DNA of 64,000 nt, from positions 2,477,125 to 2,541,124 of the forward strand of contig NC_012997.1 of assembly GCF_000023025.1 (NCBI RefSeq). The letters run 5' to 3'. The stretch comes from Teredinibacter turnerae T7901. Lineage in GTDB: Bacteria; Pseudomonadota; Gammaproteobacteria; Pseudomonadales; Cellvibrionaceae. Positions 21,619-64,000 of this stretch are shown one piece after another (within the stretch, counting starts at the first letter, position 1; the number at the start of each line of letters is the position of its first letter). The translations under genes were made by a program, and so were the position numbers. The notes beneath the pieces were generated by a model that saw nothing but the letters and a program-made list of their open reading frames with translations, did not search any database and had not been told where the DNA came from.

Positions 21619-21790
21619 TGGTTAATAGGATCGTCCAGCTTCGGGTTTTTTGTGTGCATTAGGTTGCATAGGCATATTGTGCGGTTCTTCTTTAGTATAA
21701 AAGAGAGTATAAAGAGAGCATAAAAACAGTATAAAATGCTGTACAAACCATAGAGTTTAAGAGCTGGCTAATATGTAAACTATCAAAGAT

Positions 21791-21838
21791 AGCAGATTCC
21801 AACACCTTAGAGACTAAGGTGATGAAACCTGCTTTTTT
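21791..21838 (+). terminator. Strong terminator between the convergent CE8 and dehydrogenase genes
   Basis: Long hairpin: AGCAG (21791) pairs with CTGCT (21829-21833), and the core CACCTTAG-AGA-CTAAGGTG (21803-21821) is perfect; the middle pairs with a few wobbles. A run of six T residues follows on the plus strand, so it terminates the pectin methylesterase message. Confidence 0.88.
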
Positions 21839-21841
21839 GTA

Positions 21842-22879: not shown

Positions 22880-22938
22880 AAATCACCTCTAACCGTATAA
22901 TTGTTGCAGTCGCAGTTTTGCCAACAAATAACACATAG

Positions 22939-23772: not shown

Positions 23773-23886
23773 TGTAAAATTCCCGTATAGGTTAAGAATT
23801 AGAAGAGCTTGCGTACTTCAATAACTAGGGGCGCATAGCCTATTGCGATAGTAGATAGCTTTCTGGCTTGTTACGCGAAAAGCGCG

Positions 23887-27923: not shown

Positions 27924-27954
27924 AGTAATAGTCCTTTAATTTTTCGGGCTATAA

Positions 27955-30021: not shown

Positions 30022-30563
30022 GAAAATTTCCCTTTTAGCGTTTTTATTTAGGCTTTTTCGTGTTGTTTGCGTGGTGTCGACTCTAACAGCCGGAGACTGC
30101 ATGGATAGCTGACTCGCTATAAAACAATGTGGTTACGGTGTGAATATTGGAGCCGCTGTTGTGCTCTGTACTGTTCAGTCTGATGATTAACTTATTGTGT
30201 GGTGTTAGATAAATATTTCCCTATGTGTAACAGATGTAGCGTCTCTACCGAATCACTCCTTACCGCATAATGAGATTAGTTCAAATAATCCTCGTTAAAG
30301 CTCAGACGCCTGAGTTATCAACTGGAGTGCGACCTTTGCGGTAATTAAGCAGTTTGCCGTAAACCGACGGTTATTTTGGTGTCGCGGTGGCCCTTTTAAA
30401 TGTGATGGATATGTCAAACGAAACACGACTAAATAAAAGCGCCTGGAAACTAAGGTTTCGTTGTGTAGGTTTTCTATAAACGTGGCAATGAAAACTGCGA
30501 AGCAATAGCGGGTACAGGGAGTAACGCCATTACTCAAATGGCGACGGAAGCCCTTGATTTATC

Positions 30564-34607: not shown

Positions 34608-34698
34608 GGTGTAAGCAAAAAGTAAGGTGTAAGCATAAAGACGCTCTTGAGCGCACTTATATCGATGTAGTAACCGTGTAATTTTTAGAGGTCTTGAT

Positions 34699-41949: not shown

Positions 41950-43545
41950 TTAGAGTACGATTATTTTTTTTCCGAATAATCGTTCAGCTGGAATATTGCG
42001 CTTTTCGCATTCGTCTAAAGCTTTTTGTGACTCCTGTATTTGCTCTGCATCGTCGGTGTAATCCAGACCGATAAAGTACTTGTACCATGGCTCCATCCCA
42101 AGCGCATAAATAAATACGCTTTTCGGTGCCAACAGGTCAATTATTTCAAGTGCCTGGGTAGAATCCGACCCGTTCAAACGTCGCGAGTCACGAATATTCT
42201 GTGCGACTTTTTTTGTGTTAAGCGCGCCGTATAACCAGGTGTAGGGTGCCCCGACACATTCCATGCCCACAGCAAAAATGTCGGCATCGTGTAATAGAGG
42301 TTGCAAATGACGGTACAAATTTATATCCGGGTTGGCGGAATCTGCACCGAAAAAGCATTTCTTACCTTGTAGCTCAACCAGCCACGCAGATTTACTGCGT
42401 ATGTCCAGGTCGCCGTGCTCGCCGAGGAATGGGATGGCGGTTATTCTACCTTCGGGCAAATTAACTTGATCCAAGTCTTCAACTTCCTCCACTTTAAAGC
42501 CTAGTTGCCTCAAAATTAGCTTCATTGAGGGGTCCGCTAAACTGCCACCGTTATTTTTGGGGACCAGAATAGTGCCTATTTTGTATCTAAGCTGTAATAG
42601 CGTCTCGATGTTGATGTGATCTTGATGATTATGGGTTACACATACGTAATCAATAAAAGGTGGAAGTTCACTGAAGCTAATAATTTCATCAGCGTATTGC
42701 TCACCTCTGCTCGCGATTACTGGGTCGATCAGCACACACACTTCGCATGTTTCTACCATAAAACCGGCGTGCCCGGTATAGGTTAATCGGACTTCGGACG
42801 CGGCTGGCCGAACGTATTGTTTTGCGGGTGCGCTTTCGGTAAATATCTCACCGACTGAGAGCCCGCCATTCAGCGTTTTATCGGCGAATAAGGCGTCCAG
42901 TTCGCTCGCTGATATTGGTGTTTCTCGGCTTTTGCATAAAATATCCCAGAACTCGTCATTAAATTGCGCATTAATTTGCAGATGGTTTTCATCCGGCAGT
43001 CTGGGTGTGCTAAAAACGAATGGACGATCCCCTACTTTAGAAATCATACCTATTGAAAGCGACTGTAGCTCCGGCTTGTAATACGGACTGCGGTACATGA
43101 GCGGTTCGATAAATCGATAGGATGGATGGTGATCCAAGTGCATAAAGAGTTCAACATATCCCTTTAACCCGTCGGGTACCTGTTGATAAAGGTAATCGAT
43201 ACTTTCGCCGCTGGTGTGATTAGCCACGTGTTCGTTCAGTTTTTTAATATCTGTCGATAGAGAAACCAGATCACCGCATTTTTGTTCAATTTCTCCAATC
43301 AAACGCTTTATATCGCCCAATTGTTCCAGTGAACAATCAACGAAATCGCCACCAGTCATTGAGTTATAGTCCTTCGCCAATATATGCAGTTCGTGATTTT
43401 TTACATACGACTTCATTATGCGGCGGTGAGTATTGGTGATATGACGAGCTGCGGTTGCGGGGGCAATAAGATATGGCCACGCGTACCATTGGTTAAACAG
43501 TGGTTCAATATAGACGTCTTCTTTTAAGTAAAATTGTTGGCTCAT
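41950..43545 (-). CDS. CmlA-like diiron beta-hydroxylase (MBL fold) of the NRPS operon
   Basis: 531 residues, the size of CmlA, the chloramphenicol-pathway enzyme that hydroxylates the beta carbon of a carrier-bound amino acid. The N-terminal half matches the CmlA-type N-terminal domain (VYIEPLFNQWYAWPYLI, HRRIMKSYV, GGDFVD). The C-terminal half is a metallo-beta-lactamase fold with metal motif THNHQDH, a Glu in FLGEHGDLD at the place of the extra diiron ligand, Asp in FFGADSANPD, and YALGMEPW near the end. It lies 131 bases downstream of the thioesterase-ending NRPS gene in the same direction and before a terminator, so it is the last gene of the operon. Likely role: beta-hydroxylation of one NRPS-tethered residue; which one is unknown. 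A plain MBL hydrolase is the alternative. Confidence 0.8.
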   Translation of the reverse strand: MSQQFYLKEDVYIEPLFNQWYAWPYLIAPATAARHITNTHRRIMKSYVKNHELHILAKDYNSMTGGDFVDCSLEQLGDIKRLIGEIEQKCGDLVSLSTDIKKLNEHVANHTSGESIDYLYQQVPDGLKGYVELFMHLDHHPSYRFIEPLMYRSPYYKPELQSLSIGMISKVGDRPFVFSTPRLPDENHLQINAQFNDEFWDILCKSRETPISASELDALFADKTLNGGLSVGEIFTESAPAKQYVRPAASEVRLTYTGHAGFMVETCEVCVLIDPVIASRGEQYADEIISFSELPPFIDYVCVTHNHQDHINIETLLQLRYKIGTILVPKNNGGSLADPSMKLILRQLGFKVEEVEDLDQVNLPEGRITAIPFLGEHGDLDIRSKSAWLVELQGKKCFFGADSANPDINLYRHLQPLLHDADIFAVGMECVGAPYTWLYGALNTKKVAQNIRDSRRLNGSDSTQALEIIDLLAPKSVFIYALGMEPWYKYFIGLDYTDDAEQIQESQKALDECEKRNIPAERLFGKKIIVL

Positions 43546-43676: not shown

Positions 43677-46600
43677 TCAGGCCGAAACCCATTTTCGATT
43701 TCGCTGCATCTCTTTTTTAATAAGCCCGCCAATCTCAGCTGCCGCTTCCCCACGCATCATGAGGTGATGTTCCGCTGAGATTTCGCAGTGCTGGTTTTCA
43801 CTTGCATGTACGGTGTTAAGCCAGTCTTCGAATATGTCGCGCTTGAGTTGCGATGGGTTTTTGGAGGCGGTAATTAGCATGGACTTTCCGCCTATGCTGA
43901 ACTCCGGAACAGACCTGTCGACTTTGTTAAAGTCGATTCCAAATTGCAATCCCACAGAGATCTGCTCGGCTGACATAGGATTATCCGCACCGGTCAGGTT
44001 CGCGAGGTAATCCGCAACGAGCGTGATTTGTTCTGTCATGGGCTTACCATTGATTGCTGACTGGATATCACTTGGAAGAACAAAAGACGTTTCTGGACTT
44101 TCTTCGTCCTGGAGCTCTATTTGAAGCACATCCATCAAGTGTTGCTCGTCAGTTTGTTCCGCTTTATTGGTACGTTGTAAAAGTGCGTCGATGATAAACA
44201 ATCGCTGTACCTCGTCCTTGTGACGAACCAGCCTGTTTGCGACCATTGCTGCGATATTACCCCCTGCTGACCAACCGGCGATGTTGTACGGGCCTGATGG
44301 TTGATAAGCGCGCATTTCATGAATATAAAATTCAGCCAACTCGCTAAACTGTTCAAACCTTACTACCTGACTATCGTTAAAGGGGGCTTGCACACCATAA
44401 ACAGGGCATACTTTTTCGAGTGCTTTGGCGAGACCCAGATAGCCATCACAGCGACCGCCGTAGGGATGAAATATAAATAGCGGACTGCCCTGTGTGCACT
44501 GATTTAAGCGGATAATACATCGACCATGATTTTGCGTACCTGGCTGTTTTAGTGTTCGCGCAAAATCGCGAATAGATGGTTTTTCATAAAGCTGTTTGAG
44601 CGATGCGTCAATTCCCTGCTGCTTCATTTTCGCCAACACCTTAAGCATGAGTAATGAATGCGCGCCTAGTGAGAATATATTTTGGGTAACGCTGATACTG
44701 TTCTCGTCCAGTTCTAACAGTTCGCTCCAGATCGACAGAAGTTGGCTTTCCAATTTGTTCGTCGGTCTGACTACGTCACCATCGCCCATTGTCTCTGCTG
44801 GTATGGGCAAACGCGATCTATCAATTTTGCCGTTTTCGTTTAGCGGCAGCTTGTCGAGCGGGACTATAAACGCGGGAACCATAAAGTCTGGCAGTAGGGA
44901 CAACAACGCCTGTCTAATTTGGGCAACCTGAGTGGCATCGTCTTCTGGCCCGCTGGCAAGGGTTACATAAGTAACGATTTGCGTGCCCGTATTTTTACCG
45001 TGCTGCGCACAGCTGAATGAAGTGACAACAGAGGGGTGATCGGACACATGCTGGTTGATTTCGTCGAGCTCCACTCTAAAACCACGAATTTTCAACTGAT
45101 TATCTGTACGACCAATAAACTCCAGGGTCCCTTTCTCTGTTAAGCGTGCTTTGTCGCCAGTTTTGTAAAGCCGCCGATCGTGACCTGCAATAGAGACTGT
45201 GACAAACGACTCTTCAGTGTTCATCGCTCGGTTTAAATATCCGCGCGCGAGGCCAGTTCCCTCAATATACATCTCCCCTGCACAACCGACGGGTACACTA
45301 CGTCTACTGCTGTCCAGCAAGTGCACGACCATATTATCTATTGGCAAACCAATCGTGCTTGTCTGGCTTTCATTTATGACGGCATAGGTCGTATCGACCG
45401 TTGCCTCTGTTGGACCGTAAACGTTGATAAAATTGCGATCAATCTGACTGCCAATTTTCACCAGTTGCTGCCAAAGACGCTGAGTTATCGCTTCACCGCC
45501 AATCAGAATGTGTGGCAAACGGCGCGCCCTGGTTTCTGCGCAGGTTAAAACGATTTCGGTAAGTGACGGCGTCATGTCAACTACATCAATCGCGTTGTCC
45601 GTCAGATAAGTTATGAGCGCGTCTGGATCTAAGCGAATGTCCGCATTTATCAGGTATAAAGTGCGACCAAAGCCAAGCTGAGTGATAACTTTAAGAGACG
45701 AATCAAACGCAACGGGCGCGTTAAGTGCCCAGTTTTGCGCATGGTGACCAAATTGCTCATTCGCCAGCGCATTCATCCAGCAGGCAAGATTGACTATCGA
45801 GCGATGCTCTACCATCACACCCTTAGGCTTTCCGGTAGATCCGGAGGTGTAGATGACATAGGCGAGCGCGCGGGGGTTGATGTCGCTGAGGTTGAGGTTG
45901 TCGTTATCCAGGGTAAGGAGTTCGGCCTGGATGTGGTCGCTGTCGAGGGCGAGGGTTTGGCACTGGTGCTCGGTGCTGGCGAGTTCGCTGACCCCGGCGG
46001 TGACCACCCAGTTGACGCCGCTGTCTTCCAACAGGTGCGTCTGCCGCGCAGGCGGGTAGTTCGGGTCGATAGGCACATAGGCAGCGCCGGCTTTGAGGAT
46101 GCCGATCAGGCCGACCAGCATGGCGCAAGACCGCGTGGCGCACAGGCCAACCAGGGTCTGGGTGCTAACCCCCCTCGCCCGCAACGCCCGCGCCACCTGG
46201 TTTGCTTGCGCGTTTAGCTGGGCATAGCTGAGTTCGCCGTCGTCGGCGACAACCGCTATTGCATCCGGTGTCCGTGTGACCTGGGCTTCGAACTGGGTGT
46301 GCAGGCAGGTATCGGGGTACGCCACCCTCGGCCCTTGCAGCGCGGTGAGCGCCTGCTGGGTCTCCGCCGCACTGAGCAGACTCAGCTCGCCGACGTGCGT
46401 GGCGCTGTCCAGTTGTTGCAGCACCCGCAACAGCTGCTGCCCCAGGCGTTCCACCTGGGCCTGGGACAACTGGGCCGGCTGATAGGTCAGTTTCACATGC
46501 AGGCAGTCCGACAGGCTGGCGGTGATCGATAAGGGGTAGTTGGTGGCTTCCACGCTGGCGCTACCGACCACCCGCAACGCCGCCGGATCGACCTCATCAC

Positions 46601-49600
46601 GTTGCTCGCGCAAGCGATCCACCGGGTAGTTTTCAAACACCAGCAGGCTGTCAAACAGCGGGCTGATGCCCCGCTCCCGCTGAAGATCCGCCAGCGGGAT
46701 GTAGCTGTAGGTGTTGCGCGCATGTTGTTGCTGATGGAGTGTCTGCAGCCAGGTCTCGATGGGGCTGTCGTTGGGGACGGTCACCACCACGGGCAAGGTA
46801 TTGATAAACAGGCCAACCATACTTTCCACACCGGGCAGGTCGGCGGGCCGTCCGGAGACCGTGGTGCCGAACACGACGGTATCGTCACCGCTGTAGCGTG
46901 CCAGGAGGTAAGACCAGGCCGCCTGTAACAGGGTGTTGACGGTGGTTTGTGTGGATCGCGCCAGGGCGCTGAGGCGGTCGCTGGCGGCGGCGCTGAGCTG
47001 CAGGTGATGCTGGACGGCCGGTGCGGCGAGGTCGTCGACGCTCACCCGTCCACCGGGTAAGGGGGTCGGGCCGTCGATATCGGCCAGCACCTGCTGCCAG
47101 TAGGTGCGCGCGGCGGCCATGTCCTGGCGCTGCCACCAAGCAATGTACTCGCGGTACGGGGTGACCGGGGGCAGCGCGGGGGCCTGCCCGTGTAATGCGG
47201 CGCGGTAAGCGCTTTGCAGTTCGCTGAAGATCAGCCCCAGGCACCAGCCATCACTGAGGGCGTGATGGTGACTCCACAGCAGCTGCGTTTGCGGTTCGCC
47301 CGCCGCGCTCAGGGTCTGGAACAGCGCAACGGCCATCAGTGGTGCCGCATGCAGATTAAACCCCGCCTCGTATTCGGCGTCGCGATACGCTTCGATATGG
47401 GCATTTTGCGCCTCGGCCGATAAGTGGCGCAGGTTATCGCTATGCCAGGGAACCGGCGCATTGGCGAGTACCGCCTGGTGCAACTGGCCGTGATCTTCGC
47501 CCACAAAGGCGGTGCGGAAGATGGCGTGGCGTTGCTGCAAGGTGTGCCAGGCCTGGCGGAAGGCCTGGGTGTCGAGATCCCCCTCGAAGGTCAGCCGCAA
47601 TTGGGTGACGTAGGCGCTGCGTACCAACAGGCTGTGGAACAGTAAGCCGGATTGCATCGGGGTGGCGGGATAGAGGTCTTCCACATCCCTTGGCCGGCAG
47701 TTGAGCTGGTGTGGCCAGTCCCGCACCACGGCATCGTCCATAGCCACCAACGGGAAGTCCGCGGCACTGACGGCACCGCTTTCCGGGTCCAGGCAGTGTT
47801 GGATCAACGCCGTCACACTGTGTTGCACCGCGTCCGCCAGCGCCGCCATGGTCTCGGCACTGTATTGCTGGGGGTCATAACTCAAGTCAAACGACAGGCA
47901 GCCGTCGGCGACCAGGCCGTTGAAGTTCAACGCATGGCTCATGGCGCGCTCAGGACTGACGTCATCGCCACGGGATTCCGGTGCCCCCGCGAACGGGCCA
48001 TCGTCGTTGACGACCTGGTCGAACTGGCCGAGGTAATTGAACACCACCGGGGCCTGGGGCCCATCGGCCAGCACCGGGTCATCGGCCAGATAGCGCAGCA
48101 GGCCATAGCCGATACCGTGATCGGGCACCGCGCGGTACTGCTGTTTTACCTGCTGGATTAACCGGCCCAGGTCGTCGTTGTCGCCGTCCGGCAGACTCAA
48201 CGCCAGGGGGTAAACGCTGGTAAACCAGCCCACGGTTTGCGTGAGGTCGATGCGTTCGTCGCGGCTCTCACGGCCGTGCCCTTCCAGGTCGATAAGGACC
48301 TGAGTACAACCGGACCAGCGGCTAAGCCCCAGCAGCAGCCCGGACAGCAGCAGCTCATTGACCTGGGTGCGGTAGGCGCGCCCGGCCTGGGACAGCAGCG
48401 CGCGGGTGTGTTCGGCGCTCCAGTCGAGGGTGATGTGCCCGGCGTCGCCGTGCTGGCAGCGCGGTTGTTCGGCGTGCAGTCGCTGTGCGTCGGCACTGGC
48501 CAGGCGTGATATCTGCTGATGCCAGTAGGCCTTTTGCGACTGGAAGGCGTCACTGTGAACGTAATCCTGCAACCACTCGCCCCACTGCTGGTAGGCACTG
48601 GTCTTGGCGGCAGGCCGTAGCGGTTGGCCCCGGCTGGCCTGACCCAGCCACTGTTGTGCGTCGTCCAGCAAGATACGCCAGGACACCCCGTCGACAATCA
48701 GGTGGTGTGCTACCAGCAACAGCCGGTAACCGTCTGGGGCACCGTCGTCTGGCCGGTAGTGGATCGCTTTAAACAGCGGGCCGGTGTGGATGTTCATGGC
48801 GCGCTGCTGGGTCTGGGCGTTGCGACTTACACTGTCGGCATCGCGGTAGTCTACCTGTTCCCAGCTGGCGGCCAGCATAGCGTCGTCCAACGGCTGGTGC
48901 TCGGCGCTCCAGTGGTGGTTGGCATCCTGCACAAAGCGCAGGCGCAAGGCATCGTGGCGTTGATACCAGTGGTGCACCACCGCTTGCAGTGCGGCGCTGT
49001 CCAGGTCGGCAGGAACACGTAACAGGACGGCCTGATTAAAATGCTGGCGGTCGCCCGCTTCTTGTAAAAACCGGCGCTGGATCGGCAGCAGTGGCATGGC
49101 GCCGGTGACCGGCCCCTGCGGGATAGCGATACCCTGCCCTTGCGTCACGCACGGCGCGAGGCGGCGGATGGTCTGGTGGGCAAAAAGCTGTTTCACACTC
49201 AGCTGCAAGCCCTGTTGCAATGCCCGCGAGACCAGTTGGATCGACAGTATCGAGTCGCCGCCCAGTTCGAAGAAGTTGGCGTTGACACTCAAGGTGGCGG
49301 GATCGCGACCCAGCAGCTCCGCCCAGAGGTTGACCAGTTGCTGTTCGATGGCGTTGGCCGGGGGCTGGTAGTCGGCCCCGGCGGACTCGCTCAGGGTGGG
49401 TACCGGTAAGGCGTTGCGGTCGATCTTGCCGTTGGCGGTGAGCGGCAAGGCGGCCAGGGGTTCAATGGCGGCGGGCACCATGTAGTCCGGCAGGTCCTGT
49501 TGTAAGGCGTCGCGCAGGCGGGTGCGCAGGGCATCGGCGGTCGCGGCATCCAGACTGGGATGCTCATCACTGACGACATAGGCACAGAGGGCTTTTTGCC

Positions 49601-52600
49601 CGGGGCTGTCTTCGCGCAGGATCACAATGGCTGAGCGGATACCGGGCTGTGCCAGCAAGGCCTGCTCGATCTCGCCCAGTTCAATGCGGAAGCCGCGCAG
49701 CTTAATCTGGTGGTCGACACGGCCGACAAACACCAGTGCGCCGTCAGCGCGCATGCGCACCAGGTCACCGGTGCGGTACAGCCGCGCGCCCGGGTCGGAG
49801 TTGAACGGATCGCGTACAAAGCGCTCGGCGTTGAGTTCCGGTCGCTGCCAATAGCCGTCGGCAACCCCATCGCCACCCACGTAGAGTTCCCCTTCACTGC
49901 CCTGCGGGACCGGCTGTTGCCACGGGTCCAGGACATGGACACTGGACTGTGCCAGCGGAAAGCCGATGGGATAACTCGCGGTCTCGGCCTCTGTGACCTC
50001 GTAAGCGGTGCTGAAGGTGGTGTTCTCGGTGGGACCGTACACGTGAAGCAGGTGCGCAGGCCGACCATGGTGGAGGATGGTGCGCACCCACTGGTTATCG
50101 ACCGCTTCACCGCCGAAGCGAAGCACCCGCACATGGGCAAAGCTGTCGGGGGCGGCCTGGGCGATCTGGTTAAACAGTGCGGTGGTGACAAACAGGACGC
50201 TGACGTGCTGATCGCGCAGTTGCTGGCGCAGGGTTACCGGGTCAAGCAGGTCGTCTTTGCTAATCCCCACCAGCTGGGCGCCCTGGGTTAAGGCGCCCCA
50301 GACTTCAAAGGTGGCGGCATCGAAGGCGTGGTTGGAGGCCTGGGCGACGATATCGGTCTCAACCACCGGGTAGTCGTTGCGCGCCGCGCTGCCCGGGTGT
50401 ACCAGGCGCACGACGTTGCGATGGGTTACCGCGACGCCTTTGGGTTGGCCGGTGGAGCCGGAGGTGTAAATCACGTAGGCGCGATCGGTGGGCGCAATGG
50501 TCACGGCGGGCGGGTGGTCTGTACTGCGCTGCCACTGGTCCAGCGCCACCGGATTAACTGACGCCAGTGGCGGCAGGTGTGATTGGGTCAACACGCAGTG
50601 CACACCGGCGTCTTGCACCATGTACGCGAGACGGTCGGCGGGGTATGTGGTATCCAGCGGCACATAGGCACCACCGGCTTTAAGGATACCCAGCATGCCG
50701 ACCAGCATGTCCAGCGAACGCTCCACATACAGCCCCACGTGATCACCGGGGCGCACGCCATGATCCACCAGGTGATGGGCGACACCATTGGCGCGCTGAT
50801 CAAGGGCGGCGTAGGTCAGACTGGCGTCGCCGTAGCGGGCGGCGATGCGCTGCGGGTGCTGGGCGGCGCGGGCGGCAACCAGTGCGGTCAGATCGGTATC
50901 GCGGGGATAGTCGCTGTGGGTGGCGTTGTGCTGTTGCAGCCACTGGTGTTCGCTGTCGGTCAGTAGCGGCAGGTCGCTGAGCCGGCTGTTGGGGTTGGCG
51001 GCCAAGCCTTGCAACAAGGTGCCATAGCGGGCGGCCATCGCCTCAACCGTGGCGGCGTGCCAGAGATCGCAGTTGTACTCGAGGGTGACGGTGAGCGCCT
51101 CATCGTCATGTTCTTCTACCGCAATGATCAGGTCGAACTTGGCGGTAATGGCATCGCTGGCCAGGGGGCTCAGGGTTAAGCCTGGCAGGCTGCGGCCGCT
51201 TGCGGTGTTGGTGTTCATGCTGAACATGATCTGGAACAGCGGTGCGTACTGCGGGGTGCGCTCGGGCTTGAGGTCGTCGACCAGCAGTTCGAACGGAATA
51301 TCCTGATGGGCCTGGGCGTCGAGGTTGACGTTGCGGACCTGGGCCAGGTAGTCGCTAAAGCGGCTGTCGCTGTCAGGCACCTGGGTGCGCAGCACCAGCG
51401 AGTTAACAAAGAAGCCCACCAGCGGTTGCAGCTGGGCGTCGAGGCGGTTGGCGACCGGGGTGCCCAGCACGATGTCACGGCTGTGACTGTGGCGGCTCAA
51501 CCACAAGGTGGCGGCGGCGTGCAGGACCATAAACACGGTGGCGTTGTGCGCTTGCGCCAGCTGTTTAAGGGCGGCGGTGGTGGCCGGTGCAACGGTGACA
51601 TTGGCGTGGCCACCGGTGTGTCCCGGTTCAGCCGGGCGCGGGCGGTCCAGCGGCAGGCTGTGCACCGGCGGCAGGTCGGCGAGGGTCGTGCGCCAGAAGT
51701 CCAGCTGCTGGTCACGCAGTTCACCTTGCAGGTACTGGCGCTGCCAGTGGGCGAAGTCGGCGTATTGAATGGTCAAGGGTGGCAGTGGATCAGGCTCGCC
51801 AGCCTGAACCGCCTGATACTGGGTGATGAACTCATCGACCAGTACGCCCATGGACCAGCCATCGGACACAATGTGGTGCATGGTAAACAGCAGTACGCCA
51901 TCGTCCACGCCCAAATCGAGAAAATGCGCGCGCAATAACACGTCGCGCTCCAGGTCAAACGCGGTCAATGCATCGGCATCCACCGCGGCCTGTACCGCTG
52001 CGGTTTGTTCGGCTGCAGGCCGTTCGCGCAAATCGGTGCGACGAAGCGTGAACTCAACCTGTTCCCGGATCACCTGCTCGGCGCCCTCCCCGCTCTCGCG
52101 AAACACCGTGCGCAGCGGCTCGTGACGCGCAACGATCCGCTGCAGCGCCTGCTCCGCCGACACCACATCAAACGCACCCGATAACCGCAGTGCCGACGGA
52201 ATATTGTAGTGCGCACTACCTCCCGACAACCGGTCTACAAACCATAAACGCTGCTGCGCGTAGGAGAGCGGGAAACATACCTCAGCTTGGCGCTGATCTT
52301 CATTGCACGTAAAGCTGCGGGGTTGTGCAACTAAAGGCAGCTTGTGGATGCTGTTGTTTTCACTCCGAGCAATACAGTCAGCCAATTGTGACAAAGTGCT
52401 GTTCTCAAACACATCGCGAATTGAAATGTCCGCGCTCATACGTTTGGCGATGAGCGTAATCAAGCGAATGGTTAACAGTGAATGCCCGCCCAGTGAGAAA
52501 AAATTTCCATTGCGACTAATGGAATCTACGGGAAGCTGAAATAATTCCGCCCAGATTCCCGCCACCTGTTTTTCCAAAATAGAGCTCGGCGCAACAAATT

Positions 52601-55600
52601 CAGCACTTGCCACTGCGCGTTCGGGTACCGGCAATGCCTTTTTATTAATCTTTCCATTCGCCGTAAGTGGCATTGTTTCTAGAATCACAAATACCGACGG
52701 CACCATATAATCGGGCAGTACTTGCTTGATATGTTTTTGTAGCTTGTCTTCGGGGTAAGGGATAGTTTCAGTCAACGTGACGTAGGCTGCAATATAGGGC
52801 CCCGAAGATGTATCTGTACACACAATAACGGCCGCCGACTTTACTGCGTAGAATTGGAGAAGTTGCTGCTTAATTTCCTCCAACTCAATACGAAATCCGC
52901 GGATTTTGACCTGATCGTCTGCGCGCCCTAAATATTCCAGCTCATTGGTATCCAGCCAACGCACCAAATCACCGGTTTTGTATAGGCGTGAATCGCCAGT
53001 AAATGGTGTAGTAATAAAACGCTCATCCGTAAGGTCAGTACGATTGCGGTAACCTCGAGCGACACCTTCTCCAGCAAGATAGAGCTCGCCAACAACACCT
53101 TTAGGTACTGGCTCCAAGTACGCATCCAGAATATACGCTTGAGAAAAATATATAGGCCGCCCAATAGTGACTTTGCTGGTAGGTTCTCTGTATTCGGCAA
53201 TGGTTGAATAGGTCGTATCTTCCGATGGCCCGTAAAGATTCAACACCCGCTCACATTGAGAACCCGTGAGTAATGCGTTGACTGTTGCTTCCGGCAGTGG
53301 CTCACCGGCCAGATTTATTGTAATTGCCGAGCTTGGGATACAATCCGCGTCGATTAAAGCCGCGATACCGGACGGCACCGTATTTATCAGTGTAGGGAAA
53401 TACGGCTGATCGATCAGCGCGAGGATATTTTCAACGAGTAAAACAGTCGCGCCGGACACCAGAGGCAGAAAAATCTCAAACACTGACAAATCGAAATTAA
53501 TAGAGGTGCTTGCGAGGGTTAACGATAACTCCTCGACCGAAAAGACCGTTTGCGCCCAGCGCAACATAGCACAGGTATTGCGATGCTCAATTTCAACACC
53601 TTTGGGTAAACCGGTTGAGCCGGAGGTATATATAATATACGCCAGATTACTTGCTGTAACTGGAAGGTTCGGGTTTGTCACCGCATAACATTGCAGCGGC
53701 TCCCAGATGTTATCGACCTGAATAATTTGGAGCGAGGAATCGCTCGTATCGAGCGGTACGTTTGAAGTGCTGAGTATGATTTGTAAACCACTGCTCGTAA
53801 TAATGTTTTTCAGTCGTTGTGTTGGATATGCCGGGTCCATTGGCACATAAGCGCCACCAGCTTTTAATACTGCCAACAATGCGACGACCAAATCCATACT
53901 GCGAGGCATCGACACCCCGACCGGTGTTTCCCGTTGCACGCCCTGCTCCAGCAGATAGTGAGCTAGGCGGTTTGCGCGCTGGTTCAGTTCTCTATACGTG
54001 AGAGACTCATCGCCGCAATGGATAGCAACACCTTCTGAGGACATCTCAGCTTGACGTTCAAACAGCTGATGAATACAGGTGTTACTAAATTCACTGGTTC
54101 CGCTTAGGTCTTCCAGTGAGACCTGGTCCTCTGCAATTTCGCTAAGTTCATCTAACTCGATGCCAGTCATCAATGGCAGTTGCATTATCGTTTGGGTTGA
54201 GTTTTCCATTACCCCTTGCAACAGCGTTTGGTAGTGGGCAGCCAAACGATGAATGGAAGCCGGCGTAAATAAATCCGTACTGTAAATGAAATGGAAGTCC
54301 AACTCTTCGCCGTGTGTTTGAACGTCTAGCGTTATCTCAAAATTGGCTGAAGTAACGTCGGTTGCCAAGGACTTCAGATTCCAGCGCTCGTTACTTTGGC
54401 CGGTTTCCGCCACAGTATTCATGCTAAACAGGATCTGAAAAACCGGATCGTGACTGGTGCTTCTCGGCGGGTTAAGAACATCAACCAAATAATCAAAAGG
54501 CACATCCTGGTTGGCTTGGGCAGCAACATGGACCGCTTTAATATGTTGCAGAAAATTCTCAGCCTGGAGATTGTCGTCACACAGGGTTCGCAACACCAGG
54601 GTGTTGGCAAAAAAGCCGACAAGATGTTCACTGGCTTCGTCTACCCGATTCGCGATTGGCGTACCCATAACCACATCGCCATCTTGACTGTGGCGCGCAA
54701 TCAGCAGTGCAAAAACACCCTGCAACAGCATAAATGGCGTAATACCCTGTTCAGCAGCAAAGGCTTTTAATTCACTCAGACCAAATGCACAACGACTGAT
54801 GTACTGCGCCCCTTGCTTGCTCTGGACGGGTAAGCGAGGAAAATCTAACGGTAAACTGTGGACCTGCGGAAGGTCGGCAAGTTGAATTTTCCAGTAAGCC
54901 AGCTGATTACTGAACAGGTCGCTCTGGAGAAACTTTTTTTGCCAGTGAGCATAATCTGCATACTGAATATTCAGCTCCGGTAAAATGTAGTTGGCCACCG
55001 AATGCTGACTTGAATCTTTGTTGTCCTGGCTGCAAGCGTCCCAAGAGGTCTTTCTGTCGGCAATTGCCTCATAAAGCTGCGAGAATTCGCTCATTAGCAA
55101 ATTTAATGACCAACCATCGGCCGCGATGTGGTGGAGAGTAAACTGTAAAACCCCGTGACTTTCGCTTTGACGAAAGAAGCAGGCGCGCAGCATGAGGTCA
55201 TTTGCCAGATCGAACGGCCTGTTGGCGAAGCTTGTAATCTCTGTGTTAACTGTTAATGTGAATTCCCTATCGGATAGATCATCGAGGAGAACACGTTCCA
55301 GATTAAAACTGGGGTAGTCCTGAACCTGCTGCCAGATTGTTTCACCGTCGTGCTCATAGACTGAGCGCAAGACCTCATGGCGATTGATCAGGTTTTGTAA
55401 ACTTGCCTCTGCAATAGCCTCATCAAAATCACCTGTTACCGAAAACGCTCCAGACAAGTGATAACCTTGACTACCCCCATCCATCGCATCGATAAACCAT
55501 AAGCGCTGCTGAGAAAAAGACGCCGGTAGACGTTGACCATCTCTGGGTACCGGGCTGATCCGATATAGTTCAGATGTATCGGATTTCTCAGATGCCAGCG

Positions 55601-55754
55601 TTAAATAGTCGATAATCGCTGGCTTGTGCGCCAGGATCTCCTGCTTTATTGATTCAGGAAATTCATCCACCGATAATTTGAAACGCAGCCCGCGATCTTC
55701 GACGAAAAGAAATACGCCCGCTTCTGCAGCGCGTTTTATTAAGGCTTCAACCAT
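43677..55754 (-). CDS. NRPS, three modules plus thioesterase (C-A-T-C-A-T-E-C-A-T-TE)
   Basis: 4025-residue terminal synthetase. Order: TubC-like docking domain (1-55); module 1 C (about 70-510, HHIAADG), A, T (LGGHSLL); module 2 C (from about 1158, HHIVSDG), A, T (LGGDSIL), E (HHLIVDG, NYLGQFD); module 3 C of the type that follows E ([18 protein letters not shown]), A, T; thioesterase (about 3740-4025, GWSAGG, terminal EHH). Hand-read codes: module 1 D-L-F-N-N-A-L-T-Y-K, identical to the known Ala code; module 2 D-A-F-F-R-G-V-T-F-K, aliphatic-like with an odd Arg; module 3 D-S-K-D-L-G-V-V-D-K, one change from a Glu code. Predicted order Ala, X made D by the E domain, Glu, then release. The start shares one base with the previous stop (TAATG). 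Residues about 1161-3312 are the repeat copy. Confidence 0.95.
45818..52273 (-). repeat. 6,456-bp direct repeat, copy 1 (within the 3-module NRPS)
   Basis: Near-identical to 57115-63570 at a constant offset of 11,297; one mismatch noted (45846 G versus 57143 T) and no indel seen in the lines compared or in the translations. It encodes C-A-T-E-C and the first part of an A domain. Edges: the C-domain core 1 (SYAQQRLW) at 52273 and the A3 core ([10 protein letters not shown]) at 45818. Confidence 0.95.
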
Positions 55755-58700
55755 TACAGAGATCCTTCACTTTTTATTTCTACTGCGGCTTCCCGCTGCT
55801 TTAAATAGTGTTGTAACTGAATGCTGTCTATTTGTTTGGCGGTATGTTCCAGAACGGCTGATTCAAACAGTGCACTAATTTCAATTTCAATCGCGAACTC
55901 GCGACGTATTTCGGAGGCCAGTTGCACCACCAGCAATGAGTGACCGCCGAGACGAAGAAAATGAGAGTTTGCCCCAATGGCTTCCGTAGGGATGCTCAAT
56001 ACCTTTGCCCAAATACCGGCAAGCTTGCGTTGCGTATCAGTAGTTAAGGGTGTTAACTCCTGGAGATGGCTAAGAGTGTCAATCGCCGGCAGTGCTTTCT
56101 TATCAACCTTTCCATTGGGTGAGAGCGGTATCGCATCGAGCAGCATTAGTCGACTGGGGACCATGTATTCCGGCAATCGCGTTCCCAGCTCGCCTAACAA
56201 CTGGGTGATAAGCGTTTCTTTTTGCTCTGCGTTCTGATTCAGATTTTCCGGTACCACATATGCCACAAGTGAACCATTTTGGGCCAGAACCACAGCGCGT
56301 TTTACTGCCGTAAGCATTCCGAGATGACGCTCAATTTCGGACAGCGAAATTCTGTAGCCGCGAATTTTTACTTGGTCGTCGTCACGACCAATAAAATAAA
56401 TACCGCCTGATTCATTCCAATAGGCTCTATCACCTGTTTTATAAATTTTTTCTTCCGCATCTGAACGGAGAGAATGAGGGTGAGGAATAAATTTTTCTTT
56501 GGTCAGGGACGTATTGCCAAAATAACCGGCTCCGACGCACTCACCACCGATATACAAATCACCAGCAACACCTTGCGGGCATGGCTTGAGTGATTCGTCC
56601 AATACGAATAGATGTATATTGGCAAGCGCATTCCCAACTGGCGGATTCCAGGCGTTTTCACTTAACAATGCATCGTCACGATCAAACTCATATGCCGCCA
56701 CCACATCTGTGCACTCGGTGGGACCATAAGAATTCCAAAGCCGACAATCGCTCGTTAAAAACCAGTCGCGCACTCTGGCCCAGGCAATAGGTTCACCGCC
56801 GAGATAAACCGCTTTCAGGCCCGCAATTTCGGTTTCCGCATTGCATTGCTCGAGTAATGGATAAAAGGCGCTCGGGGCACAATTGATATAGTCGATACGG
56901 TGTTTGGCAATTGTGTTGTTAATGACTTTCGGATCGAAGAATGACGCTTCGTGAAGCACCAGAGTGCCGCCTTTAAACAGCGGCGTCCAAAGGTTTTTTT
57001 GGGTTAAGTCGAAAGACAAAGAACTGAATACAAGCACATGCCCGCGCGAGATTTCGCCAAGGCTCGTTGCATACCATGCACAGAGATTGCTGAAACTGTA
57101 CTGGTACACCTGCGCACCCTTAGGCTTTCCGGTAGATCCGGATGTGTAGATGACATAGGCGAGCGCGCGGGGGTTGATGTCGCTGAGGTTGAGGTTGTCG
57201 TTATCCAGGGTAAGGAGTTCGGCCTGGATGTGGTCGCTGTCGAGGGCGAGGGTTTGGCACTGGTGCTCGGTGCTGGCGAGTTCGCTGACCCCGGCGGTGA
57301 CCACCCAGTTGACGCCGCTGTCTTCCAACAGGTGCGTCTGCCGCGCAGGCGGGTAGTTCGGGTCGATAGGCACATAGGCAGCGCCGGCTTTGAGGATGCC
57401 GATCAGGCCGACCAGCATGGCGCAAGACCGCGTGGCGCACAGGCCAACCAGGGTCTGGGTGCTAACCCCCCTCGCCCGCAACGCCCGCGCCACCTGGTTT
57501 GCTTGCGCGTTTAGCTGGGCATAGCTGAGTTCGCCGTCGTCGGCGACAACCGCTATTGCATCCGGTGTCCGTGTGACCTGGGCTTCGAACTGGGTGTGCA
57601 GGCAGGTATCGGGGTACGCCACCCTCGGCCCTTGCAGCGCGGTGAGCGCCTGCTGGGTCTCCGCCGCACTGAGCAGACTCAGCTCGCCGACGTGCGTGGC
57701 GCTGTCCAGTTGTTGCAGCACCCGCAACAGCTGCTGCCCCAGGCGTTCCACCTGGGCCTGGGACAACTGGGCCGGCTGATAGGTCAGTTTCACATGCAGG
57801 CAGTCCGACAGGCTGGCGGTGATCGATAAGGGGTAGTTGGTGGCTTCCACGCTGGCGCTACCGACCACCCGCAACGCCGCCGGATCGACCTCATCACGTT
57901 GCTCGCGCAAGCGATCCACCGGGTAGTTTTCAAACACCAGCAGGCTGTCAAACAGCGGGCTGATGCCCCGCTCCCGCTGAAGATCCGCCAGCGGGATGTA
58001 GCTGTAGGTGTTGCGCGCATGTTGTTGCTGATGGAGTGTCTGCAGCCAGGTCTCGATGGGGCTGTCGTTGGGGACGGTCACCACCACGGGCAAGGTATTG
58101 ATAAACAGGCCAACCATACTTTCCACACCGGGCAGGTCGGCGGGCCGTCCGGAGACCGTGGTGCCGAACACGACGGTATCGTCACCGCTGTAGCGTGCCA
58201 GGAGGTAAGACCAGGCCGCCTGTAACAGGGTGTTGACGGTGGTTTGTGTGGATCGCGCCAGGGCGCTGAGGCGGTCGCTGGCGGCGGCGCTGAGCTGCAG
58301 GTGATGCTGGACGGCCGGTGCGGCGAGGTCGTCGACGCTCACCCGTCCACCGGGTAAGGGGGTCGGGCCGTCGATATCGGCCAGCACCTGCTGCCAGTAG
58401 GTGCGCGCGGCGGCCATGTCCTGGCGCTGCCACCAAGCAATGTACTCGCGGTACGGGGTGACCGGGGGCAGCGCGGGGGCCTGCCCGTGTAATGCGGCGC
58501 GGTAAGCGCTTTGCAGTTCGCTGAAGATCAGCCCCAGGCACCAGCCATCACTGAGGGCGTGATGGTGACTCCACAGCAGCTGCGTTTGCGGTTCGCCCGC
58601 CGCGCTCAGGGTCTGGAACAGCGCAACGGCCATCAGTGGTGCCGCATGCAGATTAAACCCCGCCTCGTATTCGGCGTCGCGATACGCTTCGATATGGGCA

Positions 58701-61700
58701 TTTTGCGCCTCGGCCGATAAGTGGCGCAGGTTATCGCTATGCCAGGGAACCGGCGCATTGGCGAGTACCGCCTGGTGCAACTGGCCGTGATCTTCGCCCA
58801 CAAAGGCGGTGCGGAAGATGGCGTGGCGTTGCTGCAAGGTGTGCCAGGCCTGGCGGAAGGCCTGGGTGTCGAGATCCCCCTCGAAGGTCAGCCGCAATTG
58901 GGTGACGTAGGCGCTGCGTACCAACAGGCTGTGGAACAGTAAGCCGGATTGCATCGGGGTGGCGGGATAGAGGTCTTCCACATCCCTTGGCCGGCAGTTG
59001 AGCTGGTGTGGCCAGTCCCGCACCACGGCATCGTCCATAGCCACCAACGGGAAGTCCGCGGCACTGACGGCACCGCTTTCCGGGTCCAGGCAGTGTTGGA
59101 TCAACGCCGTCACACTGTGTTGCACCGCGTCCGCCAGCGCCGCCATGGTCTCGGCACTGTATTGCTGGGGGTCATAACTCAAGTCAAACGACAGGCAGCC
59201 GTCGGCGACCAGGCCGTTGAAGTTCAACGCATGGCTCATGGCGCGCTCAGGACTGACGTCATCGCCACGGGATTCCGGTGCCCCCGCGAACGGGCCATCG
59301 TCGTTGACGACCTGGTCGAACTGGCCGAGGTAATTGAACACCACCGGGGCCTGGGGCCCATCGGCCAGCACCGGGTCATCGGCCAGATAGCGCAGCAGGC
59401 CATAGCCGATACCGTGATCGGGCACCGCGCGGTACTGCTGTTTTACCTGCTGGATTAACCGGCCCAGGTCGTCGTTGTCGCCGTCCGGCAGACTCAACGC
59501 CAGGGGGTAAACGCTGGTAAACCAGCCCACGGTTTGCGTGAGGTCGATGCGTTCGTCGCGGCTCTCACGGCCGTGCCCTTCCAGGTCGATAAGGACCTGA
59601 GTACAACCGGACCAGCGGCTAAGCCCCAGCAGCAGCCCGGACAGCAGCAGCTCATTGACCTGGGTGCGGTAGGCGCGCCCGGCCTGGGACAGCAGCGCGC
59701 GGGTGTGTTCGGCGCTCCAGTCGAGGGTGATGTGCCCGGCGTCGCCGTGCTGGCAGCGCGGTTGTTCGGCGTGCAGTCGCTGTGCGTCGGCACTGGCCAG
59801 GCGTGATATCTGCTGATGCCAGTAGGCCTTTTGCGACTGGAAGGCGTCACTGTGAACGTAATCCTGCAACCACTCGCCCCACTGCTGGTAGGCACTGGTC
59901 TTGGCGGCAGGCCGTAGCGGTTGGCCCCGGCTGGCCTGACCCAGCCACTGTTGTGCGTCGTCCAGCAAGATACGCCAGGACACCCCGTCGACAATCAGGT
60001 GGTGTGCTACCAGCAACAGCCGGTAACCGTCTGGGGCACCGTCGTCTGGCCGGTAGTGGATCGCTTTAAACAGCGGGCCGGTGTGGATGTTCATGGCGCG
60101 CTGCTGGGTCTGGGCGTTGCGACTTACACTGTCGGCATCGCGGTAGTCTACCTGTTCCCAGCTGGCGGCCAGCATAGCGTCGTCCAACGGCTGGTGCTCG
60201 GCGCTCCAGTGGTGGTTGGCATCCTGCACAAAGCGCAGGCGCAAGGCATCGTGGCGTTGATACCAGTGGTGCACCACCGCTTGCAGTGCGGCGCTGTCCA
60301 GGTCGGCAGGAACACGTAACAGGACGGCCTGATTAAAATGCTGGCGGTCGCCCGCTTCTTGTAAAAACCGGCGCTGGATCGGCAGCAGTGGCATGGCGCC
60401 GGTGACCGGCCCCTGCGGGATAGCGATACCCTGCCCTTGCGTCACGCACGGCGCGAGGCGGCGGATGGTCTGGTGGGCAAAAAGCTGTTTCACACTCAGC
60501 TGCAAGCCCTGTTGCAATGCCCGCGAGACCAGTTGGATCGACAGTATCGAGTCGCCGCCCAGTTCGAAGAAGTTGGCGTTGACACTCAAGGTGGCGGGAT
60601 CGCGACCCAGCAGCTCCGCCCAGAGGTTGACCAGTTGCTGTTCGATGGCGTTGGCCGGGGGCTGGTAGTCGGCCCCGGCGGACTCGCTCAGGGTGGGTAC
60701 CGGTAAGGCGTTGCGGTCGATCTTGCCGTTGGCGGTGAGCGGCAAGGCGGCCAGGGGTTCAATGGCGGCGGGCACCATGTAGTCCGGCAGGTCCTGTTGT
60801 AAGGCGTCGCGCAGGCGGGTGCGCAGGGCATCGGCGGTCGCGGCATCCAGACTGGGATGCTCATCACTGACGACATAGGCACAGAGGGCTTTTTGCCCGG
60901 GGCTGTCTTCGCGCAGGATCACAATGGCTGAGCGGATACCGGGCTGTGCCAGCAAGGCCTGCTCGATCTCGCCCAGTTCAATGCGGAAGCCGCGCAGCTT
61001 AATCTGGTGGTCGACACGGCCGACAAACACCAGTGCGCCGTCAGCGCGCATGCGCACCAGGTCACCGGTGCGGTACAGCCGCGCGCCCGGGTCGGAGTTG
61101 AACGGATCGCGTACAAAGCGCTCGGCGTTGAGTTCCGGTCGCTGCCAATAGCCGTCGGCAACCCCATCGCCACCCACGTAGAGTTCCCCTTCACTGCCCT
61201 GCGGGACCGGCTGTTGCCACGGGTCCAGGACATGGACACTGGACTGTGCCAGCGGAAAGCCGATGGGATAACTCGCGGTCTCGGCCTCTGTGACCTCGTA
61301 AGCGGTGCTGAAGGTGGTGTTCTCGGTGGGACCGTACACGTGAAGCAGGTGCGCAGGCCGACCATGGTGGAGGATGGTGCGCACCCACTGGTTATCGACC
61401 GCTTCACCGCCGAAGCGAAGCACCCGCACATGGGCAAAGCTGTCGGGGGCGGCCTGGGCGATCTGGTTAAACAGTGCGGTGGTGACAAACAGGACGCTGA
61501 CGTGCTGATCGCGCAGTTGCTGGCGCAGGGTTACCGGGTCAAGCAGGTCGTCTTTGCTAATCCCCACCAGCTGGGCGCCCTGGGTTAAGGCGCCCCAGAC
61601 TTCAAAGGTGGCGGCATCGAAGGCGTGGTTGGAGGCCTGGGCGACGATATCGGTCTCAACCACCGGGTAGTCGTTGCGCGCCGCGCTGCCCGGGTGTACC

Positions 61701-63811
61701 AGGCGCACGACGTTGCGATGGGTTACCGCGACGCCTTTGGGTTGGCCGGTGGAGCCGGAGGTGTAAATCACGTAGGCGCGATCGGTGGGCGCAATGGTCA
61801 CGGCGGGCGGGTGGTCTGTACTGCGCTGCCACTGGTCCAGCGCCACCGGATTAACTGACGCCAGTGGCGGCAGGTGTGATTGGGTCAACACGCAGTGCAC
61901 ACCGGCGTCTTGCACCATGTACGCGAGACGGTCGGCGGGGTATGTGGTATCCAGCGGCACATAGGCACCACCGGCTTTAAGGATACCCAGCATGCCGACC
62001 AGCATGTCCAGCGAACGCTCCACATACAGCCCCACGTGATCACCGGGGCGCACGCCATGATCCACCAGGTGATGGGCGACACCATTGGCGCGCTGATCAA
62101 GGGCGGCGTAGGTCAGACTGGCGTCGCCGTAGCGGGCGGCGATGCGCTGCGGGTGCTGGGCGGCGCGGGCGGCAACCAGTGCGGTCAGATCGGTATCGCG
62201 GGGATAGTCGCTGTGGGTGGCGTTGTGCTGTTGCAGCCACTGGTGTTCGCTGTCGGTCAGTAGCGGCAGGTCGCTGAGCCGGCTGTTGGGGTTGGCGGCC
62301 AAGCCTTGCAACAAGGTGCCATAGCGGGCGGCCATCGCCTCAACCGTGGCGGCGTGCCAGAGATCGCAGTTGTACTCGAGGGTGACGGTGAGCGCCTCAT
62401 CGTCATGTTCTTCTACCGCAATGATCAGGTCGAACTTGGCGGTAATGGCATCGCTGGCCAGGGGGCTCAGGGTTAAGCCTGGCAGGCTGCGGCCGCTTGC
62501 GGTGTTGGTGTTCATGCTGAACATGATCTGGAACAGCGGTGCGTACTGCGGGGTGCGCTCGGGCTTGAGGTCGTCGACCAGCAGTTCGAACGGAATATCC
62601 TGATGGGCCTGGGCGTCGAGGTTGACGTTGCGGACCTGGGCCAGGTAGTCGCTAAAGCGGCTGTCGCTGTCAGGCACCTGGGTGCGCAGCACCAGCGAGT
62701 TAACAAAGAAGCCCACCAGCGGTTGCAGCTGGGCGTCGAGGCGGTTGGCGACCGGGGTGCCCAGCACGATGTCACGGCTGTGACTGTGGCGGCTCAACCA
62801 CAAGGTGGCGGCGGCGTGCAGGACCATAAACACGGTGGCGTTGTGCGCTTGCGCCAGCTGTTTAAGGGCGGCGGTGGTGGCCGGTGCAACGGTGACATTG
62901 GCGTGGCCACCGGTGTGTCCCGGTTCAGCCGGGCGCGGGCGGTCCAGCGGCAGGCTGTGCACCGGCGGCAGGTCGGCGAGGGTCGTGCGCCAGAAGTCCA
63001 GCTGCTGGTCACGCAGTTCACCTTGCAGGTACTGGCGCTGCCAGTGGGCGAAGTCGGCGTATTGAATGGTCAAGGGTGGCAGTGGATCAGGCTCGCCAGC
63101 CTGAACCGCCTGATACTGGGTGATGAACTCATCGACCAGTACGCCCATGGACCAGCCATCGGACACAATGTGGTGCATGGTAAACAGCAGTACGCCATCG
63201 TCCACGCCCAAATCGAGAAAATGCGCGCGCAATAACACGTCGCGCTCCAGGTCAAACGCGGTCAATGCATCGGCATCCACCGCGGCCTGTACCGCTGCGG
63301 TTTGTTCGGCTGCAGGCCGTTCGCGCAAATCGGTGCGACGAAGCGTGAACTCAACCTGTTCCCGGATCACCTGCTCGGCGCCCTCCCCGCTCTCGCGAAA
63401 CACCGTGCGCAGCGGCTCGTGACGCGCAACGATCCGCTGCAGCGCCTGCTCCGCCGACACCACATCAAACGCACCCGATAACCGCAGTGCCGACGGAATA
63501 TTGTAGTGCGCACTACCTCCCGACAACCGGTCTACAAACCATAAACGCTGCTGCGCGTAGGAGAGCGGGATTGTTGTTCCGTCTCTTGGTACAGCCTCCA
63601 ACGGAAGTCGCTGAGCCGTACTCGCTGCATGCGATGCGGCTTTAAGATGATCCAAAAGATCGGCTTTGTGCTGCTTTATCAATGCCACGATCGGTGGCGT
63701 TAAGTTGCCTTTTTGGCTACGTGCTTTCAGCTTGTCGCCATCGAGGGCCAGCTCGACGCCTTGCGTATTAAGCTGCTTTATTACATTCAAAACGTGATTC
63801 TGCGCGCTCAT
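55754..63811 (-). CDS. NRPS, two modules with epimerase (C-A-T-E-C-A-T)
   Basis: 2685 residues. A TubC_N docking domain (1-60, [18 protein letters not shown]) shows it receives its chain from an upstream synthetase. Module 1: C (about 75-510, [15 protein letters not shown]), A ([20 protein letters not shown]), T (LGGDSIL), E (HHLIVDG, NYLGQFD). Module 2: C ([18 protein letters not shown]), A, T (LGGHSLL). Hand-read codes: module 1 D-A-F-F-R-G-V-T-F-K (same as module 2 of the next protein); module 2 D-L-K-N-Y-G-S-D-V, not recognised. A TTG seven codons upstream is in frame, but ATG 63811 with AGGA before it and one base after the previous stop is the natural start. Ends TAATG into the next NRPS gene. 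Residues about 80-2232 are the repeat copy. Confidence 0.95.
57115..63570 (-). repeat. 6,456-bp direct repeat, copy 2 (within the 2-module NRPS)
   Basis: Partner of 45818-52273. It makes up about four fifths of this NRPS gene. Flanking sequence on both sides is unrelated at DNA level between the two genes: docking/N-terminal region to the right, the substrate-selecting half of the second A domain to the left. Confidence 0.95.
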
Positions 63812-63812
63812 T

Positions 63813-64000
63813 TTAAAATTCCATTTCCTCAATACTGTCTTCGTCCATCGCAGCTAGCGACGCGGAAAGATTACGTTGAGCAGCCAGACCGTCGATGTAA
63901 TTTGATAATTCTCGGATAGAGGCTGATTCAAAAAGTACCTTAATATCCAGATCGAGCCCGAGCTCTTTTTTGATCAAGACCAATTGTTTAATCGCGAGTA
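63813..64000 (-). CDS. 3' end of an upstream NRPS gene (carrier-domain tail)
   Basis: Partial gene entering from the right edge on the minus strand and stopping with TAA at 63815-63813, one base before the next NRPS start. The 62 visible residues include LAIKQLVLIKKELG, LDIKVLFESASIRELS and a tail ending DSIEEMEF. This is the typical second half of a peptidyl carrier domain (helices after the phosphopantetheine Ser). The gene therefore ends in a T domain and hands its chain to the TubC docking/C domain of the next protein. The acidic end (DEDSIEEMEF) may be a docking peptide for TubC_N, an inference from its place. Confidence 0.88.
   Translation of the reverse strand, partial: LAIKQLVLIKKELGLDLDIKVLFESASIRELSNYIDGLAAQRNLSASLAAMDEDSIEEMEF

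Follow-up and report, generated by a model that had tools for sequence, protein, structure and literature searches.

A near-identical direct repeat in two adjacent peptide synthetase genes of Teredinibacter turnerae T7901: concerted evolution and a GC island possibly formed by biased gene conversion

The 64,000-nucleotide stretch of the Teredinibacter turnerae T7901 genome considered here (NC_012997.1, positions 2,477,125 to 2,541,124; hereafter the window) contains two adjacent non-ribosomal peptide synthetase (NRPS) genes that share a 6.46-kb direct repeat. The repeat lies in frame in both genes, which are open from end to end, and comprises a series of condensation (C), adenylation (A), thiolation (T) and epimerisation (E) domains in the order C-A-T-E-C-A', A' being a second A domain only up to its A3 motif. 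This extent had been proposed in an earlier sequence-only reading of the window, and Pfam and motif scans agree on it. In the gene sense the 5' edge of the repeat falls on the conserved C-domain start motif, and the 3' edge on the A3 motif, upstream of the specificity pocket. The genes, the two copies and their edges are listed below in window coordinates, with the guanine plus cytosine content (GC) of the copies and the same value for third codon positions (GC3).

55754..63832, minus strand: upstream NRPS gene, 2692 aa; TubC-type docking domain, the repeated C-A-T-E-C-A', remaining A (code DLKNYGSDV), T
43677..55754, minus strand: downstream NRPS gene, 4025 aa; TubC-type docking domain, C-A-T (code DLFNNALTY), the repeated C-A-T-E-C-A', remaining A (code DS-DLGVVD), T, thioesterase (TE)
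57115..63570, minus strand: copy B of the repeat, carried by the upstream gene; C-A-T-E-C-A', second A only up to A3; GC 64.4%, GC3 78.5%
45818..52273, minus strand: copy A of the repeat, carried by the downstream gene; identical to copy B except at 1 of 6456 bases; GC 64.4%, GC3 78.6%
45818..45860, minus strand: 3' edge of copy A; A3 core motif, containing the sole mismatch (45846)
52240..52273, minus strand: 5' edge of copy A; C-domain start motif
57115..57160, minus strand: 3' edge of copy B; A3 core motif
63537..63570, minus strand: 5' edge of copy B; C-domain start motif

Base-by-base alignment at the constant offset of 11,297 bore out the near-identity first read from the letters: the only difference is a G at 45846 against a T at 57143, scattered mismatches were not seen, and the longest exact run shared by both copies is 6427 bases. 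Beyond 45818 and 52273 the identity at the same offset drops to 0.1–0.5 per 30 bases, which is the level of chance. The flanks are therefore unrelated at this offset, as had been stated, but they nonetheless encode homologous NRPS domains. A whole-genome search (best 40 of 78 candidates) found two full copies in the single contig of 5,193,164 bases, and the remaining 22 of 24 matches were short, weak NRPS homologies. An assembly artefact is an unlikely source of the repeat because a second genome holds the same two copies, distinguishable there at 37 sites. Passages of the genome project paper describe Sanger and 454 sequencing with insert libraries of 3–4 kb, 8–10 kb and 33–39 kb (PMC2699552), and inserts of the last class could be long enough to span the repeat pair.

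The second genome, G006, was the only one besides the present genome (G000) to give a full-length match when eight genomes of the genus Teredinibacter were searched with 20 kb of the region. It carries the same two copies with the same edges and the same offset. Within a genome the copies differ at 1 site (G000) or 37 sites (G006), while between the genomes they differ at 96–108, so that paralogues are closer than orthologues. Among the 121 variable sites, 83 carry a genome-specific base in both copies, 38 are private to one copy and none pairs copies across the genomes (site-pattern counts 0011=83, 0010=24, 0001=13, 0100=1, 0101 and 0110=0). Conversion after the split of the lineages would give just such a result, 83 concerted sites against no cross-genome pairing, and judging from these patterns it is almost certainly gene conversion between the copies that keeps them nearly identical in each lineage. 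A second repeat family of the two genomes, t3285, is also in concert (0011=51 versus 3 cross-genome pairings).

Homogenisation in G006 is patchy. Of the 37 differences between its copies, 15 fall within 461 bases of the A3 end, 20 at positions 4246–5422 and the other 2 nearer the opposite end. The longest identical run, 3785 bases, was matched by none of 20000 random placements. The cluster at A3 looks like a fading of homogenisation towards the end of homology, yet just 2 differences fall in the last 1033 bases at the other end.

The sequence-only reading had offered a very recent duplication or ongoing gene conversion as alternatives. A duplication confined to this genome, real or introduced during assembly, would agree with a single mismatch in 6456 bases; however, the same pair with the same edges and offset in G006, where the copies differ at 37 sites, and the presence of the 83 genome-specific bases in both copies leave it with a vanishingly small probability, and as a sole explanation it is refuted unless both assemblies share the same error. 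Only the conversion half of the alternative thus stands. A survey of relatives for single-copy, fused or diverged versions had also been advised: the full-length region was found only in G006, which keeps both copies with their 37 differences. The common edges and offset indicate a duplication older than the split, although the pair may instead have passed from one lineage to the other at a later time. Exchange of the region between the two lineages after their split is likewise possible, because it is closer between the genomes (98.3 and 98.5% identity for the two copies, 96.0% for the spacer) than are its outer flanks (94–95%). At window coordinate 64500 the identity between G000 and G006 falls sharply from 98% to 90% and then continues at about 94%, which suggests an exchange boundary between the lineages.

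The repeated cassette also differs from its host genes in base composition, and this GC island and its possible cause are additions to what was read earlier. The cassette has 64.4% GC and 79% GC3, while the rest of the same genes has about 48% and 46–51%, respectively. Measured from the four repeat edges, the best-fitting GC steps are 43, 73, 43 and 71 bases away, all within 75. Compared with 32 homologous tracts in single-copy modules from the surveyed regions of this genome the cassette is raised by +0.165 GC, a level that none of these tracts attains.

Imported DNA is classically recognised by abrupt changes of GC at its edges and by a GC3 that sets it apart from the remainder of the genes, as here. 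The C-A-T-E-C-A' cassette could have come from a high-GC source by horizontal transfer, been copied to the neighbouring gene and been kept alike by unbiased conversion, its GC being that of its origin. We regard this as unlikely. A search for a donor among sampled genomes of the order, own genome included, with the best 4, 14 and 7 candidates per genome scored, revealed no close GC-rich relative in 293 genomes (A-T) or 115 genomes (C1, E-C2), with the limit that the sampling was partial and a donor may be missed. The comparison of A-T involved two features:

60443..62215, minus strand: A-T from copy B of the duplicated module; code DAFFRGVTF; nearest homologue found in the next-door module (51% identity, GC 49.7%)
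63903-65678 in window coordinates, mostly past the window end: A-T of the next-door module; code DAFFLGVTF

Among the matches scored, this adjacent module, of normal GC, was the best A-T homologue outside the copies (577.6 bits), and the best one elsewhere in the 293 genomes reached 518.6 bits and 49% identity in a locus of 37% GC. The best external C1 and E-C2 matches among those scored in the 115 genomes lie in DNA of 42–50% GC. A search of genome contigs gave best identities of 31–44% and one of 21% (21 loci), with no close relative, and no plasmid record covered 80% of the query, the best one listed having 69% identity over 22%. No close GC-rich donor thus appears to be in view within this partial sampling. 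Some of the scores do favour an import: the external homologues of C1 and E-C2 rank slightly above the native ones (402 versus 392 and 595 versus 549 bits), and the A-T matches ranked next outside the genome include, after two more at 37% GC, genomes of 67% and 65% GC.

GC-biased conversion between the copies seems to us the more probable cause of the island, the bias being inferred from composition. The C-A-T-E-C-A' block would have been copied between the adjacent NRPS genes before the two Teredinibacter genomes diverged, with its ends at the conserved C-domain start and A3 motifs, and conversion since then, for which the comparison of the genomes speaks directly, would hold the copies nearly identical in each lineage. 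If repair during conversion favours G and C, the exchanging stretch alone would drift from about 48% to 64% GC. The same process may have marked other homogenised modules of NRPSs and polyketide synthases (PKSs), as a correlation between GC and paralogue identity suggests.

We surveyed at least 34 NRPS and PKS regions from seven of the eight genus genomes (G007 was left out, and not every cluster was covered) for self-repeats no shorter than 300 bases with 80% identity or more. Seven families resulted, and one tandem of 155-base units was kept out of them. Six families, the cassette included, exceed matched single-copy controls on average (+0.165, +0.080, +0.067, +0.076, +0.117 and +0.143 GC). 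A GC step was found within 100 bases at 13 of the 22 repeat edges tested, and in four families, the cassette being one of them, the step sits at the limit of paralogy. In the PKS2171 family the steps lie 165–198 bases inside the repeat at three of four edges. An import of the cassette leaves unexplained these other GC-raised homogenised modules with matching edges, among them one pair of 1.2 kb tracts 29 kb apart.

The loci concerned, with the contig handles of the survey, are as follows. Tandem NRPS modules with a 3285-base unit (G000 C1:2432208-2439262, L084/L085; G006 C1:2810980-2818034) are 99.3% identical, have a GC of 0.56 with flanks at 0.40–0.44, and are in concert in G006 too. Two 1184-base tracts (G000 C1:3162375-3163558 and 3191428-3192611), 29 kb apart, are 97.7% identical at 0.556 GC versus 0.40–0.46 outside. 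An NRPS tandem with a 3219-base unit (G003 C1:1757545-1765830, L069/L070) is 99.0–99.9% identical at 0.59 versus 0.47 in the region, and a pair of PKS tracts (G004 C2:700344-702513 and 708844-711013, L119) is 96.8% identical at 0.62 versus 0.47. Apart from these families, Photorhabdus species (L020-L023) have 1.5-kb NRPS tract pairs that are 88–90% identical, with a GC of 0.49–0.51 versus 0.45–0.46 in the locus and an absolute GC skew of 0.13–0.18 versus 0.09.

The relation was also followed over 13,479 survey windows from 44 genomes or loci, two of which had no baseline; genomes with fewer than three windows of at least 85% paralogue identity were left unscored. The GC3 excess over the low-paralogy windows of the same genome was +0.04 at 70–80% paralogue identity, +0.10 at 80–90%, +0.11 at 90–97% and +0.17 at 97–100%, the last value being +0.11 once the cassette is removed. 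Windows of at least 85% identity were above those of less than 70% in GC3 in all 13 genomes or loci that had at least three of them. Import of the cassette does not explain this graded relation. In a second sample of 11 genomes, drawn from homologue searches before their repeats were looked at, four had windows of at least 85%, with a GC3 excess of +0.211, +0.081, +0.149 and, in one GC-rich genome, -0.025. When homologous single-copy windows served as a matched control, the GC3 of the windows of at least 85% was higher in 15 of the 17 genomes or loci with at least three such windows. These are not independent: the four Photorhabdus loci form one family, and three families are common to G000 and G006. 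Near-identical repeats are under-counted here, since draft assemblies break at them. A GC above that of matched non-recombining homologues, as expected of GC-biased conversion, is thus seen in the cassette, in most families and in most genomes or loci, and not in a 5696-base tandem taken as a whole.

That conversion between NRPS and PKS modules is generally GC-biased is a wider proposition, to which we give marginally better than an even chance. It would mean that modules homogenised for long in genomes of low or middle GC become sharply bounded GC islands, many of which are now read as imports, and that GC acts as a clock of exchange by which young tandems are not yet raised. Such a young duplication may be represented by the 5696-base tandem (G000 C1:3175852-3188688, L067), which makes up the seventh family. 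Only a 1445-base segment within it is slightly raised (+0.043 GC, n=29 controls), and this segment occurs once more than the unit; for the remainder of the unit, whose translation runs over a gene boundary, GC alone was considered.

Several observations weigh against GC-biased conversion. The 5696-base tandem is 99.7% identical, yet its array GC is 0.466 versus 0.463 in the region and the GC3 of its survey windows is 0.440 versus a genome baseline of 0.498; near-identity can evidently exist without a rise in GC, which also speaks for an imported cassette. The 155-base-unit tandem (G000 2657560-2658286) has the average GC of its region. No GC step lies within 100 bases of the four edges of the PKS1041 family or of the two edges of the 5696-base tandem; PKS1041 is, moreover, not in concert now (0011=3, 0101=10), and its surrounding DNA also has a GC of 0.55–0.59. 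In the second sample the 70–80, 80–90 and 90–97% bins rise little (-0.002, +0.009 and +0.035), and the matched rise is absent from L025 (-0.002, 4 windows) and the GC-rich G250 (-0.028, 93 windows). Finally, when the cassette is taken by itself, its private changes are divided just 18:14 between GC-to-AT and AT-to-GC, and the converted changes between the genomes are symmetric (31:34 and 20:22) and unpolarised for want of an outgroup, which is why the bias had to be derived from composition.

Polarised by parsimony, the private changes of three families comprise 82 GC-to-AT versus 43 AT-to-GC, and new mutation therefore does not keep the GC high. A lowering of GC by private mutations is also what amelioration of an imported cassette would produce.

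The causal order might also be reversed, if GC-rich module DNA recombines more or is selected for its codons, so that high GC causes homogenisation. That GC3 rises with paralogue identity says nothing of direction and would accommodate this. We nevertheless consider it improbable, given that the GC step of the cassette, like that of three further families, falls at the limit of paralogy and that the G003 tracts homologous to PKS1041 (48–51% protein identity, homologues by similarity), which are not homogenised, have GC values of 0.480 and 0.443 versus a background of 0.449.

Near-identical repeats with a role in conversion are known from other assembly lines. Genetic repeats of intense nucleotide skew (GRINS) were reportedly described in assembly-line PKSs by Nivina in 2021. 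As passages of two papers present them, they are stretches of an assembly line that are highly identical to one another and undergo gene conversion, of which they are a known driver in PKS genes (PMC9899208, PMC10394414). The cassette resembles them in this, and over at least 500 bases it is more than 80% identical to a second segment of its own assembly line. GRINS have intense skews and a length of about 1 kb, however, whereas the present repeat is 6.46 kb long, has raised GC and is only weakly skewed: its GC skew of -0.08 and TA skew of -0.03 are under the 0.15 or 25% given in passages of PMC9899208 and PMC10394414. The mean absolute skews of the high-identity windows in the 17 genomes or loci never exceed 0.15 for both measures, GC skew alone being above it in one Photorhabdus locus (0.18). 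We hold it highly improbable that the repeat is a GRINS element, given its skew; a mechanism shared with GRINS may exist.

Three parts of the picture are already known: the link of recombination and GC at the level of genes in bacteria (PMC4450053), concerted evolution in assembly lines (PMC4256081) and A-domain recombination between A2 and A4 (PMC7486941). Medema et al. (2014, PMC4256081) describe domains of PKS and NRPS clusters that recombination inside the cluster has made alike once a module was duplicated, as here; the present case differs in its defined multi-domain tract, its base-level site patterns between two genomes and its GC imprint, the term "GC content" being absent from that text. 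Lassalle et al. (2015, PMC4450053) argue for GC-biased gene conversion in bacteria and find recombining genes to be GC-richer. They compare genes by evidence of intragenic recombination and the word "paralog" does not appear, whereas here the conversion runs between paralogous modules, with steps in GC where the paralogy ends. The palindromes of mammalian X chromosomes (PMC8981503) are likewise nearly identical pairs within a genome that have undergone GC-biased conversion, but belong to mammalian sex chromosomes and not to bacterial coding modules. In the searches made of the openly licensed literature, no report was found of homogenised modules as GC islands; one may exist elsewhere, e.g. 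in the original GRINS work.

The A3 motif, at which the repeat ends, lies between A2 and A4. The breakpoint within the A domain recalls the swaps of A-core subdomains (Baunach 2021, PMC8097286; Calcott 2020, PMC7486941), and a recombination hotspot between A2 and A4 is reported in a passage of the latter. Unlike in these swaps, the block upstream of A3 is here common to both genes, while each gene has a specificity part of its own.

The motif scan found 17 A domains in six NRPS genes. Behind its TubC-type docking domain the downstream gene has the order C-A-T-C-A-T-E-C-A-T-TE, with three T domains by Pfam and two by the motif scan, and the upstream gene, behind a docking domain of the same type, the order C-A-T-E-C-A-T; the pair has C, A and T domains with E and TE in the order of type I modular NRPSs. 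The code DAFFRGVTF is shared by the A domains of both copies and an E motif is present, while the codes downstream of the repeat differ (DLKNYGSDV versus DS-DLGVVD). The code of the next-door module, DAFFLGVTF, presumably resembles the isoleucine type. The earlier claim of two identical modules giving the same D-residue twice holds as a prediction for the identical C-A-T-E, but the second, partial module differs past A3; the pair is thus predicted to insert the same D-residue twice, each time followed by a different residue. Each duplicated module would then precede a chimeric A domain with a specificity half that the other gene does not share. The repeat had also been viewed as a substrate for deletion. 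The geometry is right for this, and a crossover would produce an in-frame fusion of about 2950 aa by segment lengths, yet both genomes with the region retain both copies (n=2).

One more gene adjoins the NRPS pair, and is likely a tailoring enzyme of the cluster.

41950..43545, minus strand: gene with CmlA_N (diiron beta-hydroxylase) and a metallo-beta-lactamase fold

Elsewhere in the window (31494-37793 and 15006-30102) a tryptophan-halogenase-like gene lies near a gene of a TonB-dependent receptor, and CBM_2 cellulose-binding domains occur in four of the eight window proteins scanned. A 7466-residue open frame in the region fits the open reading frame of about 22 kb named in a passage of PMC2699552, whose region 4, a 74-kb NRPS cluster, is probably the present cluster. 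The passages found in the literature on turnercyclamycin give no tie to this cluster.

If the proposed mechanism is true, the locus would offer a direct bacterial test of GC-biased conversion, with paralogous tracts of known limits in one gene, single-copy controls beside them and two genomes to compare. It would also caution against taking GC islands in biosynthetic clusters for imports, and would show which modules tolerate exchange, which would be useful for module engineering.

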